From assembly GCA_937128505.1 (NCBI GenBank), contig CAKZMM010000023.1:1-52007 (forward strand): 52,007 bases of DNA, in the 5' to 3' direction. The DNA is from an uncultured Thermogutta sp. (GTDB lineage Bacteria; Planctomycetota; Planctomycetia; Pirellulales; Thermoguttaceae). Below the pieces are notes generated by a model that did not search any database, was not told the DNA's origin, and was given only the letters and a program-made list of their open reading frames with translations. Below are positions 5,626-9,363 of the stretch, one piece after another. The position numbers and the translations under genes are program-made. The stretch's first letter is position 1. Each line of letters opens with the position of its first letter.

Positions 5626-6118
5626 CCCGGTGGCTCAACTCCGGTAAATACCCCAAGTGGTACGCCATAGCCCATTGAATTCGGCAAGGGGTTGACTTAT
5701 TCGTCGATATGTTATTCGTCGATATGTTCGACTCAAGGTTCGATTCATTCACCTGACCGGCTGGCAAGCTTATCCTCAAACGAGCTCGACGATTTTTTAG
5801 GTCAACTCATTCAACTTGCCAAAGATCGGCGTCTATTGATGAGGCATTGATCATCGCGGTGCGATTGTTTTTCGCAGCGCGATGGCCGAGATGGGCCGGG
5901 GGCAGGCTATCGGGGCACCAGAGGCCCGCGGCAATCGAGCCAAAGCGACTTTGGGATGAGCGGTTGAAACACACAAGAGGCTTATCCTCTAGGGGCTTCG
6001 TTTTTCAGTGGCGGATAAGAGGCTGGATTCTTCTTGGGTTTCTGAATCTTTGTATCGCCCGATTCTTCCGCAGCTTTAGGTTCTCGCGTTTGAATTTTTG
6101 CGAAGGAGCATAAAAAAC
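5626..6118. other. Intergenic gap between secG and yicC
   Basis: No gene is supported. The gap contains the 15-bp tandem duplication described separately. An 88-codon frame at 5847-6113 shows no family features and runs into the yicC ribosome-binding site. Confidence 0.5.
5699..5728. repeat. Exact 15-bp tandem duplication
   Basis: The unit attcgtcgatatgtt at 5699-5713 is followed immediately by an identical copy at 5714-5728. It lies in the secG-yicC gap and has the same period as the repeat before tpiA, but an unrelated sequence. Confidence 0.9.
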
Positions 6119-7003
6119 GTGGTGCTCAGCATGACGGGCTTCGGCGAGGCCCATGTTGAAACTGATGGGCTTCGCGTCAGCGTGGAAGTTCGCGCGGTCA
6201 ACCATCGGTTCCTGAAGACCGCGGTACGGGTCACCGAGGGCTACACCGCCTTTGTTCCCCTTGTGGAGGGGGTGCTCCGGCAGCGGATGCGCCGGGGAAC
6301 GGTGCATGCCCAGGTGCGGATTGCGCTCACGCAACTGGTCCACCGTTTTCGTATCGACGAGCGGATGCTCGAGTGCTATTGGCGGCAACTGGAGGACCTG
6401 CGGAACCGTTGGCAACTCGCCGAACCGGTACCCCTTGCCACCTTACTGAGCCTGCCGGGTGTGGTGGTGGCGGAAACTCAGCCGGAACTTTCGGAGAGCG
6501 ATTGTTGGCCGGTGGTGGAGAAGGCCCTTCGTCAAGCACTCGATGAAATGGATCGAATGCGGGCCGAAGAAGGGCGGGCGATGCTTGTCAGTGCCAAGTC
6601 GATCTGCGACCAAGCCCTGAGAATCGTGGAGCAAGTGCAGGCTCGAATGCCCGCCATGTTGGAGGCGTATCGGCTCCGGCTGCACGAACGGCTCACGGCA
6701 CTTCTGGCGGAAAGACAGATGATGCTGGAGCCCGGCGATTTGCTTCGCGAAGTCGCTCTCTTGGCAGAACGCTCGGATATCGAAGAAGAAGTTACCCGCT
6801 TGCGAAGCCATTTCGATCAGTTTGTTCGACTGTTGGACTCCGAGCAGTGCACGGGGCGAAGACTAGAGTTTTTGACCCAGGAGATGCACCGTGAGGTTAA
6901 TACCATCGGGGCGAAGGTCAGCGATCTGGCCGTTGCTCAAATGGTGGTCGACTTGAAGACGTGCGTCGAACGATTGCGCGAGATGGTTCAAAATATCGAG
7001 TGA
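6119..7003 (+). CDS. yicC: YicC/YloC family endoribonuclease-like protein
   Basis: This is a YicC-family protein, a cytoplasmic RNase-related stress protein conserved in most bacteria and often next to gmk. The N-terminal SMTGFGE and VEVRAVNHRFL are the YicC_N hallmarks. The C-terminal LEFLTQEMHREVNTIGAKV followed by VVDLKTCVERLREMVQNIE is the conserved DUF1732 end. The start is probably GTG at 6119 (or GTG 6122), because GAAGGAG at 6102-6108 sits 10 bases before it; the open frame extends back to TTG 6098, which would place that Shine-Dalgarno sequence inside the gene. This gives 294 residues, the usual length. gmk and rpoZ follow, but 1.75 kb downstream. Confidence 0.92.
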   Translation: MVLSMTGFGEAHVETDGLRVSVEVRAVNHRFLKTAVRVTEGYTAFVPLVEGVLRQRMRRGTVHAQVRIALTQLVHRFRIDERMLECYWRQLEDLRNRWQLAEPVPLATLLSLPGVVVAETQPELSESDCWPVVEKALRQALDEMDRMRAEEGRAMLVSAKSICDQALRIVEQVQARMPAMLEAYRLRLHERLTALLAERQMMLEPGDLLREVALLAERSDIEEEVTRLRSHFDQFVRLLDSEQCTGRRLEFLTQEMHREVNTIGAKVSDLAVAQMVVDLKTCVERLREMVQNIE

Positions 7004-7453
7004 TTGGAGACTCGCGAGATTTGGGAGAGGCAACTTTTTAAAAAACACATGCGTGAACACTTGAACACCGAATTCCACTCGATCTCACGAGCGGTAAAAG
7101 GGCGCTCGTCTGTGCGAGGCTCCCTTTCCAACCGCGTGGGTTTCCCCGGCTTCATCCATCCTCGAAGCGGAGTGTGTTTCTTGTGAACGTTAGTACACTG
7201 TGGATCGCTTGAAGAATCGGCCGCGAGGAAACTAGTTGCTGAAGGTCGGTAATTCTCAATCGGTTGTGGGTAGTCTGGATGCGGTATTTTCCCGGGAACG
7301 AGAATATGCAGATCAAAATTGGCATTTTGGCCGTTGATTGATCAACCGGGTGTGGCACAAACCCATCCGCCCCATTGGGCTTCAGGAGGTAAAAATTGAG
7401 TTTGAGGAGATAAAAATCGGGGGAGTGAAGGTGCTGGCGGAAACGGGATTAAG
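7004..7453. other. Intergenic region downstream of yicC
   Basis: No gene is supported. A short imperfect duplication is visible around 7383-7417 (aggaggtaaaaattgagttt, then gaggagataaaaatcgg), which copies a ribosome-binding-site-like purine run; neither copy precedes a credible gene. Confidence 0.5.
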
Positions 7454-7586
7454 TGGAGGCGCCGGGAATTGCACCCGGGTCCGGAGGCAGCACTCGGGCC
7501 CCCGGCCTACACACTTGGGCGTTTTTCGGCCTTGGACTCTGGGTCCTAGAGGGCTTGCTGCTGACCCGTCGAGGCTATTCGCCCCC
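7454..7586 (-). ncRNA. tmRNA-like RNA lacking a normal tag region
   Basis: Read on the minus strand, the RNA starts GGGGGCG (7586-7580), continues AATAGCCTCGACGGGT, and ends CCGGACCCGGGTGCAATT, CCCGG and CGCCTCCA (to 7454). These match the two ends of bacterial tmRNA. The 5' GGGGGCG pairs with the 3' CGCCTCC over seven base pairs (one G-U). CTCGACGGG is the conserved D-loop-like element, and CCGGG/CCCGG is a perfect 5-bp T stem around the loop TGCAATT. GCAGCA (7561-7556) pairs with TGCTGC (7492-7487), the expected position of helix P2. Only about 60 bases lie between the P2 strands, too short for the usual tag frame and pseudoknots. CCA is not encoded (CTT follows). It may be a tagless paralogue, a remnant, or a new variant. 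Confidence 0.6.
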
Positions 7587-8760
7587 GATTTTGGGGAGTT
7601 CGTTCCGAGACATCTCCAACGTTTGTGCCGCGAGCCACGTCAGCCAGTCTCAGTCGAATCACATTAAGCAGTACGAATGGGTGAGAGTTTTTGTGACAAA
7701 GCCGTTTCCGAGCCCTTGTCTCAGCCTTTCTCGTCAAAACGCCTTGGTGTCGGCCTCCGCGGAGGAAACGACCTCTGCCTAAATGTTGTAAGATTACTTC
7801 GGTTATTGAGGGTTATTAAGGCTCGTTGCCGCCATGATCGTTCTTTTCTCGACCACGAATTCCTGGAAGCTGTTTGGAATCGGATGGTGCACGGCCAATG
7901 CCGTATGAAGTCGATTGTTCACTCGATTGTAATTTCGCTAAACATTGCGGTCGTTGGTGGGAAGCCTAGATGTCCCGGCAAGGTGGGGTGAAATAACCGC
8001 GATTTTTGGGGAATACTTTCATATCCCTTGGGAATCAACTTTTCGGCGATATCTTTGTTCTGATGCGTCTTGCTTTCCCCCTTCGTCCCCCAAGTCATAC
8101 ATGAGTAAGATCATCACAGATGAGGTTTATGGTTGATATGTGAGTTCGTAGGTTGTTTAACCTTATAGACGATGCTTACGTTTTTAAATGAGCAAAGATC
8201 GTGTTTAAATAGATAACAGGTGTAGATCGAGTCATGGAGAGACGGACCAAGATTTACGAGCAAAGTAATTCACAATATGACCAATTCTATAAACCCTAAA
8301 GCGCGAACTGTCGCGGATTAAAGTCACGCAAATGTAAATTAGCTATCATTAAACTTCCGGAAATATGTTGTCCTAGAAGAGAGCCCAAATGTGTTGTCTC
8401 AAAAAGAGAGCCTAACTTCGTAATTCGTATATCCGAATCCTTCCGTCCGCTCCTTCCAACCCGTGGAATTGGGGGTGGTAAGGAAATGGGAAGGATTGTA
8501 GGCGCGACGGGAAAACGGTTTAATGAATGATCGCCTGTGCGAAGATTAAAACTAGTGTGTTTATGTGTTTTGTCAGTTTTTTGATTTGCCGTTTATAAAA
8601 GGGTTGTCGTTTTTCTGGCTGAATGGATTTTGGGGAAGCACCGGCAGCCTTTCTGAAGTATTAGACGCGAAGCATTTGATTACGTTTCGCATGAATTAAG
8701 ACCGGGAAGCCGAGAACGCTCAATTCACTGCCGGTAGAATCGTAGGTTGAAGCCGCGCCG
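7587..8760. other. Long gap between tmRNA-like RNA and gmk
   Basis: About 1.2 kb with no supportable coding region; it is more A+T-rich than the genes. A minus-strand promoter for the RNA at 7454-7586 should lie at about 7590-7630, but no convincing -35/-10 pair is visible there. A diverged repeat is listed at 8364-8415. Confidence 0.5.
8364..8415. repeat. Diverged ~26-bp tandem duplication
   Basis: Two adjacent imperfect copies share tgttgtc, then agagagcc and taa/caa. The first contains tcctagaagagagccc and the second tctcaaaaagagagcc. The repeat is noncoding. Confidence 0.55.
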
Positions 8761-9363
8761 ATGTCCCACCAGGTGAGGGAAGGTCGAATCGTAGTGATCT
8801 CGGGGCCTTCGGGGGTGGGAAAGTCGACCGTCCGAAAGGAGCTGCTTCGGTCTTCCCCTGTGCCGCTGGTGCGAAGCGTTTCGGCGACCACACGGCCCCC
8901 CAGACCGGGGGAACGGCACGGCGTCGATTATTATTTCCTTGCGGAAGATCAATTCGCCCAACTTCGCGAGAAGGGGGAATTCCTAGAATGTTTTCAAATA
9001 TTCGGCGGACATTGGTACGGAACACTCCGGCAGGAAGTGGAGCGAATCCTTTCCGCCGGTAATTGGGCTTTATTGGAAATCGATGTTCAAGGGGCGCGGC
9101 GAATTCGCCAGCAGAATCCCAATGCGGTAACAATCTTCATCTTGCCGCCTGACGAAGAGGAATTGGTCCGCCGGTTAACCGGTCGTGGCACGGAATCCCC
9201 CGATCGCATCGCCGAACGTTTGGCACGGATGAAAGCCGAGTTGGCGTTCGCGGGGGATTACCAGTACCAGGTGGTAAATGACGACCTATCGGCCGCGGTA
9301 AATCAGCTGAGGCAGATCCTCCTGGAGGAAAGCCGCAAAGGCAGCACGGCGGCTACCGAATGA
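8761..9363 (+). CDS. gmk: Guanylate kinase
   Basis: Transfers a phosphate from ATP to GMP, giving GDP for nucleotide synthesis; cytoplasmic. The P-loop is GPSGVGKS at 15-22, followed by the GMP-binding SVSATTRPPRPGERHGVDYYF (about 39-60) and GHWYGT, all diagnostic of Gmk. VNDDL near the C terminus is the usual adenine-side motif. Length is 200 residues, as in the family. The ATG at 8761 has a poor ribosome-binding site, and a TTG at 8746 in the same frame is possible. It is upstream of rpoZ, as in many bacteria, with a 380-base gap. Confidence 0.95.
   Translation: MSHQVREGRIVVISGPSGVGKSTVRKELLRSSPVPLVRSVSATTRPPRPGERHGVDYYFLAEDQFAQLREKGEFLECFQIFGGHWYGTLRQEVERILSAGNWALLEIDVQGARRIRQQNPNAVTIFILPPDEEELVRRLTGRGTESPDRIAERLARMKAELAFAGDYQYQVVNDDLSAAVNQLRQILLEESRKGSTAATE

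Follow-up and report, generated by a model that had tools for sequence, protein, structure and literature searches.

The minus strand of the window, by which we mean the whole 52,007-nucleotide stretch of uncultured Thermogutta sp. DNA analysed, was found to carry an RNA of 133 nt with both halves of the tRNA-like domain (TLD) of tmRNA. Judged from its sequence, this RNA very probably belongs, as a chromosomal copy, to a class of tagless tmRNAs that are short and made in one piece. Tagless tmRNA was known before; the phage class and the conserved chromosomal family described below, with strong covariation and a kept alanine identity, appear to be new.

Structure of the window RNA

The RNA occupied positions 7454-7586 of the minus strand up to the discriminator base A73, after which no CCA was encoded, as was also the case for the host ssrA. 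The 7-bp acceptor stem was formed by the 5' strand GGGGGCG (7580-7586), which carried G3, and the 3' strand CGCCTCC (7455-7461), which carried U70. Its single G-U was pair 3-70, and G3.U70 and A73 together constituted an alanine identity. The D-loop region AATAGCCTCGAC (7568-7579) contained the AG-NN-TCGA shared with short RNAs of the Anaerolineae. The T arm CCGGG-TGCAATT-CCCGG (7462-7478) had a 5-bp stem (CCGGG/CCCGG) and a loop identical to those of the phage RNA L130 and the Anaerolineae RNAs L171 and L173. P2 was built in two pieces, C19-G22 paired with T102-G105 and then GCAGCA/TGCTGC. Its 5' strands CGGG and GCAGCA lay at 7556-7568, with an AGCAA motif at 7555-7559, and its 3' strands (TGCTGC and TCCG) lay at 7482-7497 together with a CCGAG motif (7493-7497). 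A preliminary description had placed paired tmRNA ends on the minus strand at 7454-7586, with about 60 bases inside P2 and no normal tag-coding body. All of the elements that it named were in place, including TCGACGGG where it had been located on that strand; 63 nt were enclosed by GCAGCA/TGCTGC, and no tag frame with a stop was present in the RNA, there being no stop from the loop GCC to the 3' end.

The inside of P2 was an ordered structure, since beyond P2 came a stem of 6 bp that carried two hairpins. This three-way junction (7498-7554, minus strand), which was drawn from folds, covariation and alignments to the covariance model R1 described below, consisted of stem S (GCCCTC/GGGGGC), hairpin H1 (GGAC-CCAGA-GTCC, 7534-7546) and hairpin H2 (7504-7531). 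The H2 loop GAAAAACGCCCAAGTGTGTA (7508-7527) resembled the resume-codon region of tmRNA, with an A at position -4 and then GCC. The pseudoknots PK1-PK4 were absent, the 63 nt inside P2 being occupied by S, H1 and H2, and a search by eye for a pseudoknot pairing the GCCC of the H2 loop with other parts gave nothing consistent. All helices of the RNA still paired, and its fold energy was ordinary (z -1.31; 19 of 200 shuffles folded equally well).

The tmRNA model RF00023 aligned over its whole length (1-374) to 7451-7586, spanning both TLD halves, with a score of 43.6 bits and an E-value of 1.2e-15 in a 1.5 kb search and 1.0e-15 genome-wide. The covariance-model match looked for in the preliminary description was thus obtained, though 3.4 bits below the gathering score of 47; no RF00023 call was made in the window at the curated cut-off, and ARAGORN called nothing at the RNA. 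After ssrA and the window RNA, the next RF00023 match in the host genome scored 27.3 bits. The same model reached 41.1 bits on 76-nt, tRNA-size loci in relatives and 41.8 bits in genome G380. The window RNA had no YrlA match, and the tRNA model lost to the tmRNA model. The permuted tmRNA model RF04321 scored no more than 23.4 bits, on a span that was incomplete and displaced, in keeping with the earlier view that the RNA is not the permuted two-piece form. At the level of sequence, the RNA is a real tmRNA relative, as settled by its R1 match and by covariation.

Short tagless tmRNAs in phages

Thirty-three viral loci (about 25 distinct), all on IMG/VR contigs without named phages, carried tmRNAs in one piece, 91-137 nt long, that had no conserved tag. 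A first pattern requiring both TLD ends within about 130 nt returned 23 viral stretches, of which 15 were short and tmRNA-like and 8 were chance matches by eye; two stricter patterns returned 21 and 9. These patterns fixed several bases, including G3, U70 and A73, and the conservation of these three was judged from U70 swaps, the Anaerolineae RNAs and the window RNA, G3 being unvaried in the viral scans. Both strict patterns lost all their matches on substitution of A, C or G for U70 (0 and 0, against 21 and 9 with U70). The strict patterns left two acceptor pairs free, and all seven positions paired in 30 of 30 matches; the corresponding count was 0 of 12 for matches in genomes that lay inside ordinary tmRNAs. 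The inner part, folded alone, closed with the P2 helix in 27 of 27 phage RNAs. The near-identical L121, L123, L124, L127 and L146 were omitted from the comparisons of loops and folds, as was L111. RF00023 scored above its gathering score at 10 of the 12 phage loci scanned (the exceptions being L112 and L120), and ARAGORN called a tmRNA at none of 26, which may explain why the class was overlooked.

tRNA genes surrounded seven of the phage loci (L114, L117, L123, L128, L134, L135 and L141). Among ten neighbour proteins tried, a head protein was found at L112, a tail protein at L113 and SbcC-like nucleases adjoining L133 and L138; three neighbour proteins of L144 had no match. No named phage isolate with the short class was found among seven records (Calle_1, BUCTxx99, Rb1, Mx1, Moby, DLP_6 and Yut3) examined out of those returned by BLAST with five short RNAs as queries, which also included 86 Streptomyces phage records. 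Six of the seven showed full-length or permuted tmRNA matches, and the seventh, Mx1, was judged full-length by eye.

The window RNA as a very probable member of the phage class

Five phage RNAs (L144, L112, L120, L128 and L145) shared one fold, which ran from P2 through an AGCAA-like strand, S, H1, H2 and a CCGAG-like strand back to P2. The H2 loop was 18-20 nt long, and the H1 loop was GUGGUA in four of the five, unlike the CCAGA of the window RNA. In their alignment, 22 of 33 pairs were changed on both sides, a value reached by 0 of 500 shuffles. The covariance model R1 was built from these five RNAs with the window excluded. In the window, the RNA at 7454-7586 was the sole R1 match, over the full length of the model (1-136), with 69.1 bits and an E-value of 2.8e-16 (R1 E-values being rough by construction), and the host ssrA scored 36.6 bits. 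Over 50 loci, the window RNA outscored every phage RNA outside the training set (41.5-66.8 bits), every ssrA locus (up to 47.3 bits) and every tRNA-size match (up to 23.5 bits). R1 did not part the whole class from ssrA, the weakest phage members (41.5-47.4 bits) overlapping with the best ssrA (47.3 bits).

A further RNA, L161 from a Parcubacteria contig, scored 87.7 bits with R1. When it and the window RNA were aligned with the five phage RNAs, 91.2% of cells were paired and 23 of 33 pairs were double-changed in an alignment that was fitted to the model and hence favoured the structure; 0 of 500 shuffles scored as high, and slid alignments reached at most 51.8%. The H2 loop GAAAAACGCCCAAGTGTGTA was identical by eye at 16 of 20 positions to GATTATCGCCCAAGTGTGAA of L133, which was outside the R1 training set, and the motif AAANGCYCAAGTG occurred once in the window, against 0.02 expected. 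The features of the class, namely the S/H1/H2 junction, the AGCAA and CCGAG motifs and the AAxxGCCCA loop, were all present in the window RNA.

A conserved relative in the Anaerolineae and other bacterial loci

A scan of genome contigs gave 17 matches, of which 11 overlapped ARAGORN-called tmRNAs. These and L160 (by sequence) were discarded as ordinary tmRNAs and are the 12 without complete acceptor pairing mentioned above. L161, L164, L170, L171 and L173 paired at all seven acceptor positions, and four of them stood: L161, about 2.6 kb from a phage-type integrase; L170; and L171 and L173 from the Anaerolineae, which were both flanked by ordinary metabolic genes, among them genes for acyl-CoA dehydrogenase and for a D-serine-dehydratase-like protein. 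L164 (2507-2646, plus strand), in a Burkholderiaceae assembly, was set aside as doubtful; it was a 143-nt tmRNA match of 118 bits with no longer one in the assembly, and was probably an internal assembly deletion. In the WWE3 genome RBG_19FT_COMBO_53_11, the sole strong tmRNA match was the 130-nt form at L170 (4891-5020, minus strand), in which no stop was seen by eye from GCA AAC up to the 3' end.

BLAST with the L171 RNA gave a match in 11 of the 81 genomes searched from its Anaerolineae family, the query genome included (L171, 537-659, plus strand; L173, 6321-6443, minus strand; L184-L193; L203). Its core was approximately GUAGCGNGAAGGCGCA...ACGUGAAA. Nine of the 11 carriers also had a full-length ssrA match, and none was found in G460 and G512. 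In the alignment A9 of ten of these RNAs, 96.4% of cells paired and 16 of 29 pairs were double-changed, with 0 of 500 shuffles as high; A9 omitted G519, which is counted among the 11, owing to an alignment slip at the 5' end, and G455 was slipped by one column at a cost in acceptor cells. When the T stem was checked at fixed positions, G478 showed 0 of 5 pairs and G479 showed 3 of 5, reflecting changes of loop length, and 98% of the T-stem cells were paired in A9. The 7-bp acceptor, G3.U70 and A73 were kept in 11 of 11 RNAs, with pair 4-69 being G-C, A-U or C-G. The window RNA had the D loop of these RNAs (AGNNTCGA) as well as their T loop ([TG]GC), and since both are the norm in a conserved RNA, the D and T loops of the window RNA do not look decayed.

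In the phylum of the host, R1 at an E-value of 1e-7 matched 4 of 392 genomes (the host, G380, G026 and G125), in a search whose filters for large genome sets can lose weak matches. The match in G380 was a true short RNA adjoining tRNA genes (L157), and those in G026 and G125 were ordinary ssrA. Among 60 relatives, R1 gave 17 matches in other genomes, 16 on ssrA and one (G024) on a tRNA-size locus, and matched neither genus-mate. The sporadic occurrence of the window copy fits horizontal gain. Other mid-length RF00023 matches in relatives were rejected as YrlA Y-RNA-like RNAs (G039:C123), as a tmRNA cut by a contig end (G057:C57) and as a called tRNA-Met (G015:C539).

The host genome and the yicC-gmk gap

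The host genome (5.58 Mb in 198 contigs) contained a normal ssrA at C177:2019-2378, with 176.3 bits by RF00023 and the tag ANYSLALAA*, and a gene for SmpB on C105 (182.5 bits). Because the host also has this ssrA, the window RNA represents a second, tagless paralogue locus. The reading in the preliminary description was borne out in part: the tagless paralogue that it proposed was favoured by the full ssrA (176 bits) for which it had suggested a search, by the missing tag frame and by relatives of like build; the deletion relic that it also offered was disfavoured by the R1 scores of 69.1 and 36.6 bits, and the link to phages had not been foreseen.

The RNA lay in an ORF-poor stretch of 1757 bases (7004-8760) between yicC (6098-7003, plus strand) and gmk (8761-9363, plus strand), both named in the preliminary description and by synteny. 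Conservation of the pairing between these genes in relatives, which had been envisaged, was not observed: the tblastn matches of yicC and gmk ended 6-219 nt apart in all 14 relatives read, which were picked out of the 60 genomes, and the RNA was absent in both genus-mates. The stretch was single in the host genome and had no match in plasmid sequences. PHROGs gave no family for seven of its ORFs and no phage gene was seen; Pfam gave none above cut-off for six ORFs and one sub-threshold match (E 0.098). Against phages there was one match, of 33 bases, which fell on the T arm within the permuted alpha-type tmRNA of Rhodobacter phage RcSimone-Hastad and was the lead to the phage RNAs. The window RNA most likely arrived with a phage or a similar element.

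Reading frame and proposed role

No conserved tag frame with a stop was found in 23 rows of viral and other RNAs or in the 11 Anaerolineae RNAs. The frame table included L111 and the near-identical L114, L117 and L122, and omitted L130, L131, L132, L136, L137 and L140, which were without the AAxxGC motif. In 18 of the 23 rows, the frame of the GCN in the loop ran on to the 3' end without a stop (the other frames in 11 and 13), as it did in 9 of the 11 Anaerolineae RNAs (3 and 7). Because the rows are related, the open GCN frame is only suggestive. In L147, L143, L133, L120, L112 and L157 (the last by eye), a stop followed 1-10 codons past the GCN, and these RNAs may encode very short tags. The base at -4 before the GCN was A throughout the sub-class of the window RNA (7 of 7, namely the window RNA, L112, L120, L128, L144, L145 and L161), U in the L133 group, and G in 9 and A in 2 of the 11 Anaerolineae RNAs. 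This position corresponds to A86 of E. coli tmRNA, the main determinant of frame choice, and the pseudoknots and tag template of tmRNA are replaceable (PMC2481249).

Taken overall, the observations are best explained, with reasonable probability, by a phage-derived tagless mini-tmRNA that competes with tmRNA. The most likely role, we infer, is that of an alanylatable competitor for SmpB and the ribosome that tempers trans-translation; as the role of the whole class, SmpB-dependent competition is a tentative assignment that has somewhat less than an even chance. If transcribed, the mini-tmRNA would be charged with alanine and bound by EF-Tu and by SmpB, which would replace an anticodon arm at the P2 helix; where other tmRNAs have pseudoknots and a tag, the second hairpin of the junction shows a resume-like loop. 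The mini-tmRNA would then be offered to stalled ribosomes in rivalry with normal tmRNA and, since it lacks a stop-terminated tag frame, would lower or change tagging, whereby unfinished (phage) proteins and ribosomes might be shielded from the trans-translation of the host. Inhibition by a TLD has been reported without need of charging, so the kept G3.U70 hints at more than titration and would allow for an active role free of tagging; the H2 loop suggests template switching, for which a pure decoy has no use. A dedicated, alanine-charged tagless tmRNA of phages and some bacteria (the Anaerolineae, alongside a normal ssrA, and the host studied here) that has a conserved junction and a resume-like loop of its own, is spread by phages and acts on ribosomes as an active regulator, through anti-tagging or tag-free rescue, is conceivable, and we propose it with more reserve than SmpB-dependent competition.

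Alternative explanations

Tag-free rescue by template switching, in which the peptide of the stalled ribosome passes to the charged RNA, whose H2 loop moves into the mRNA channel so that translation resumes there in a frame mostly open to the RNA 3' end, with tagless release or a renewed stall as the outcome, draws on the A at -4 throughout the sub-class (at the site of E. coli A86), the open GCN frame in both sets of RNAs and the kept G3.U70. The rows behind that frame are not independent, however, single-base indels shift it among the Anaerolineae RNAs, the -4 base is U in the L133 group and mostly G in the Anaerolineae, and a non-stop template seems self-defeating; we consider this mechanism unlikely. 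Slightly more weight, though still well short of a favoured reading, is given to a decayed copy, that is, a former class member left by a mobile element with its expression lost. Such a copy would account for a single RNA in an ORF-poor stretch that relatives lack, and for the absence of any promoter-like site found near it, but all helices pair and the odd T and D loops are normal in the conserved Anaerolineae RNA.

Both ends of the window RNA are tmRNA-like, as they would be in a copy of the host ssrA that had lost its inside, whether as a relic or through faulty assembly, and such deletions do occur in metagenome assemblies (PMC11915505), L164 being a likely case. The host ssrA is intact elsewhere, however, and the inner part, D loop and T arm of the window RNA set it apart from that gene and agree with the short class, with which the loop and junction motifs are shared and whose model R1 strongly prefers the window RNA to the host ssrA; this origin is thus very improbable. 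The least probable reading is that of a chance resemblance or of a tRNA or Y-RNA mimic unrelated to tmRNA. The RF00023 scores on tRNA-size loci in relatives come near to that of the window RNA, and tRNA-like Y RNAs exist in the order (L038), but the full-length R1 match (E 3e-16) stands against at most 23.5 bits on tRNA-size loci, and neither YrlA nor the tRNA model accounted for the RNA.

Relation to known tmRNAs

The closest parallel is the TLD-only tmRNA of mycobacteriophage DS6A, which, like the window RNA, is a one-piece, tagless tRNA-like domain. It is phage-borne, whereas the window copy is chromosomal, and it is little more than a TLD, as known here by description alone (PMC4131195). 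Strong inhibition of tmRNA has been reported for a molecule of similar kind, whether or not it can be charged (PMC4131195), perhaps by titration of SmpB (PMC4131195, citing Mao et al. 2009), and the DS6A form is reported to inhibit the endogenous tmRNA of E. coli when expressed there (PMC11915505). Standard ssrA (RF00023) and the window RNA have in common the G3.U70 acceptor, A73, a D loop with UCGAC, the T arm and P2, but the window RNA is without pseudoknots or a tag frame, is 133 nt rather than about 360 nt long and has the T loop UGCAAUU. The tag frame is also absent from the tagless organellar tmRNAs (mitochondria and, at about 65 bp, Mallomonadaceae plastids) and from the WWE3 RNA L170; no full-length tmRNA match was found in the WWE3 genome, whereas the host of the window RNA also has a normal ssrA. 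Among permuted tmRNAs (RF04321, RF01849), the alpha-type of a Rhodobacter phage has a T-arm sequence similar to that of the window RNA, in which, by contrast, the halves stand in normal order.

The 2025 tmRNA database lists 9 sequences as 'standard, no CDS' out of 97,179, and 79 phage sequences (PMC11915505). Tags are lacking or perhaps lacking in mitochondria, plastids, DS6A, Nasuia and 9FT-COMBO-53-11, DS6A being the one phage case named in the text of that paper (PMC11915505). A tmRNA was reported in 402 of 18,146 phages (PMC9004378), and the tmRNA gene of Wildcat is the most highly expressed lytic gene of that phage (PMC7474061). No account of a tagless phage tmRNA class, or of chromosomal members beside ssrA, was found in the literature covered, which mostly did not extend to subscription journals. 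The 33 viral loci and the chromosomal family turn the oddity of DS6A into a class, and the class raises the questions of whether phages and bacteria control ribosome rescue through the message-less tRNA half of tmRNA and whether ribosome rescue needs any tag.

Several other RNAs were noted in the course of the searches. An unannotated permuted alpha-type tmRNA was present in Rhodobacter phage RcSimone-Hastad (MW677525.1; L106, 1229-1619, minus strand; RF04321, 108.7 bits), and permuted tmRNAs without an annotated feature, with RF04321 scores of 100-137 bits, were present in Stenotrophomonas phages BUCTxx99 and DLP_6 and Xanthomonas phage Rb1 (L149, L150 and L153). In genome G039 (L038, 2996-3677, plus strand), tandem YrlA-type Y-RNA-like RNAs scored 68.7, 66.3 and 39.6 bits (gathering score 69) and were accompanied by a weak YrlB match.
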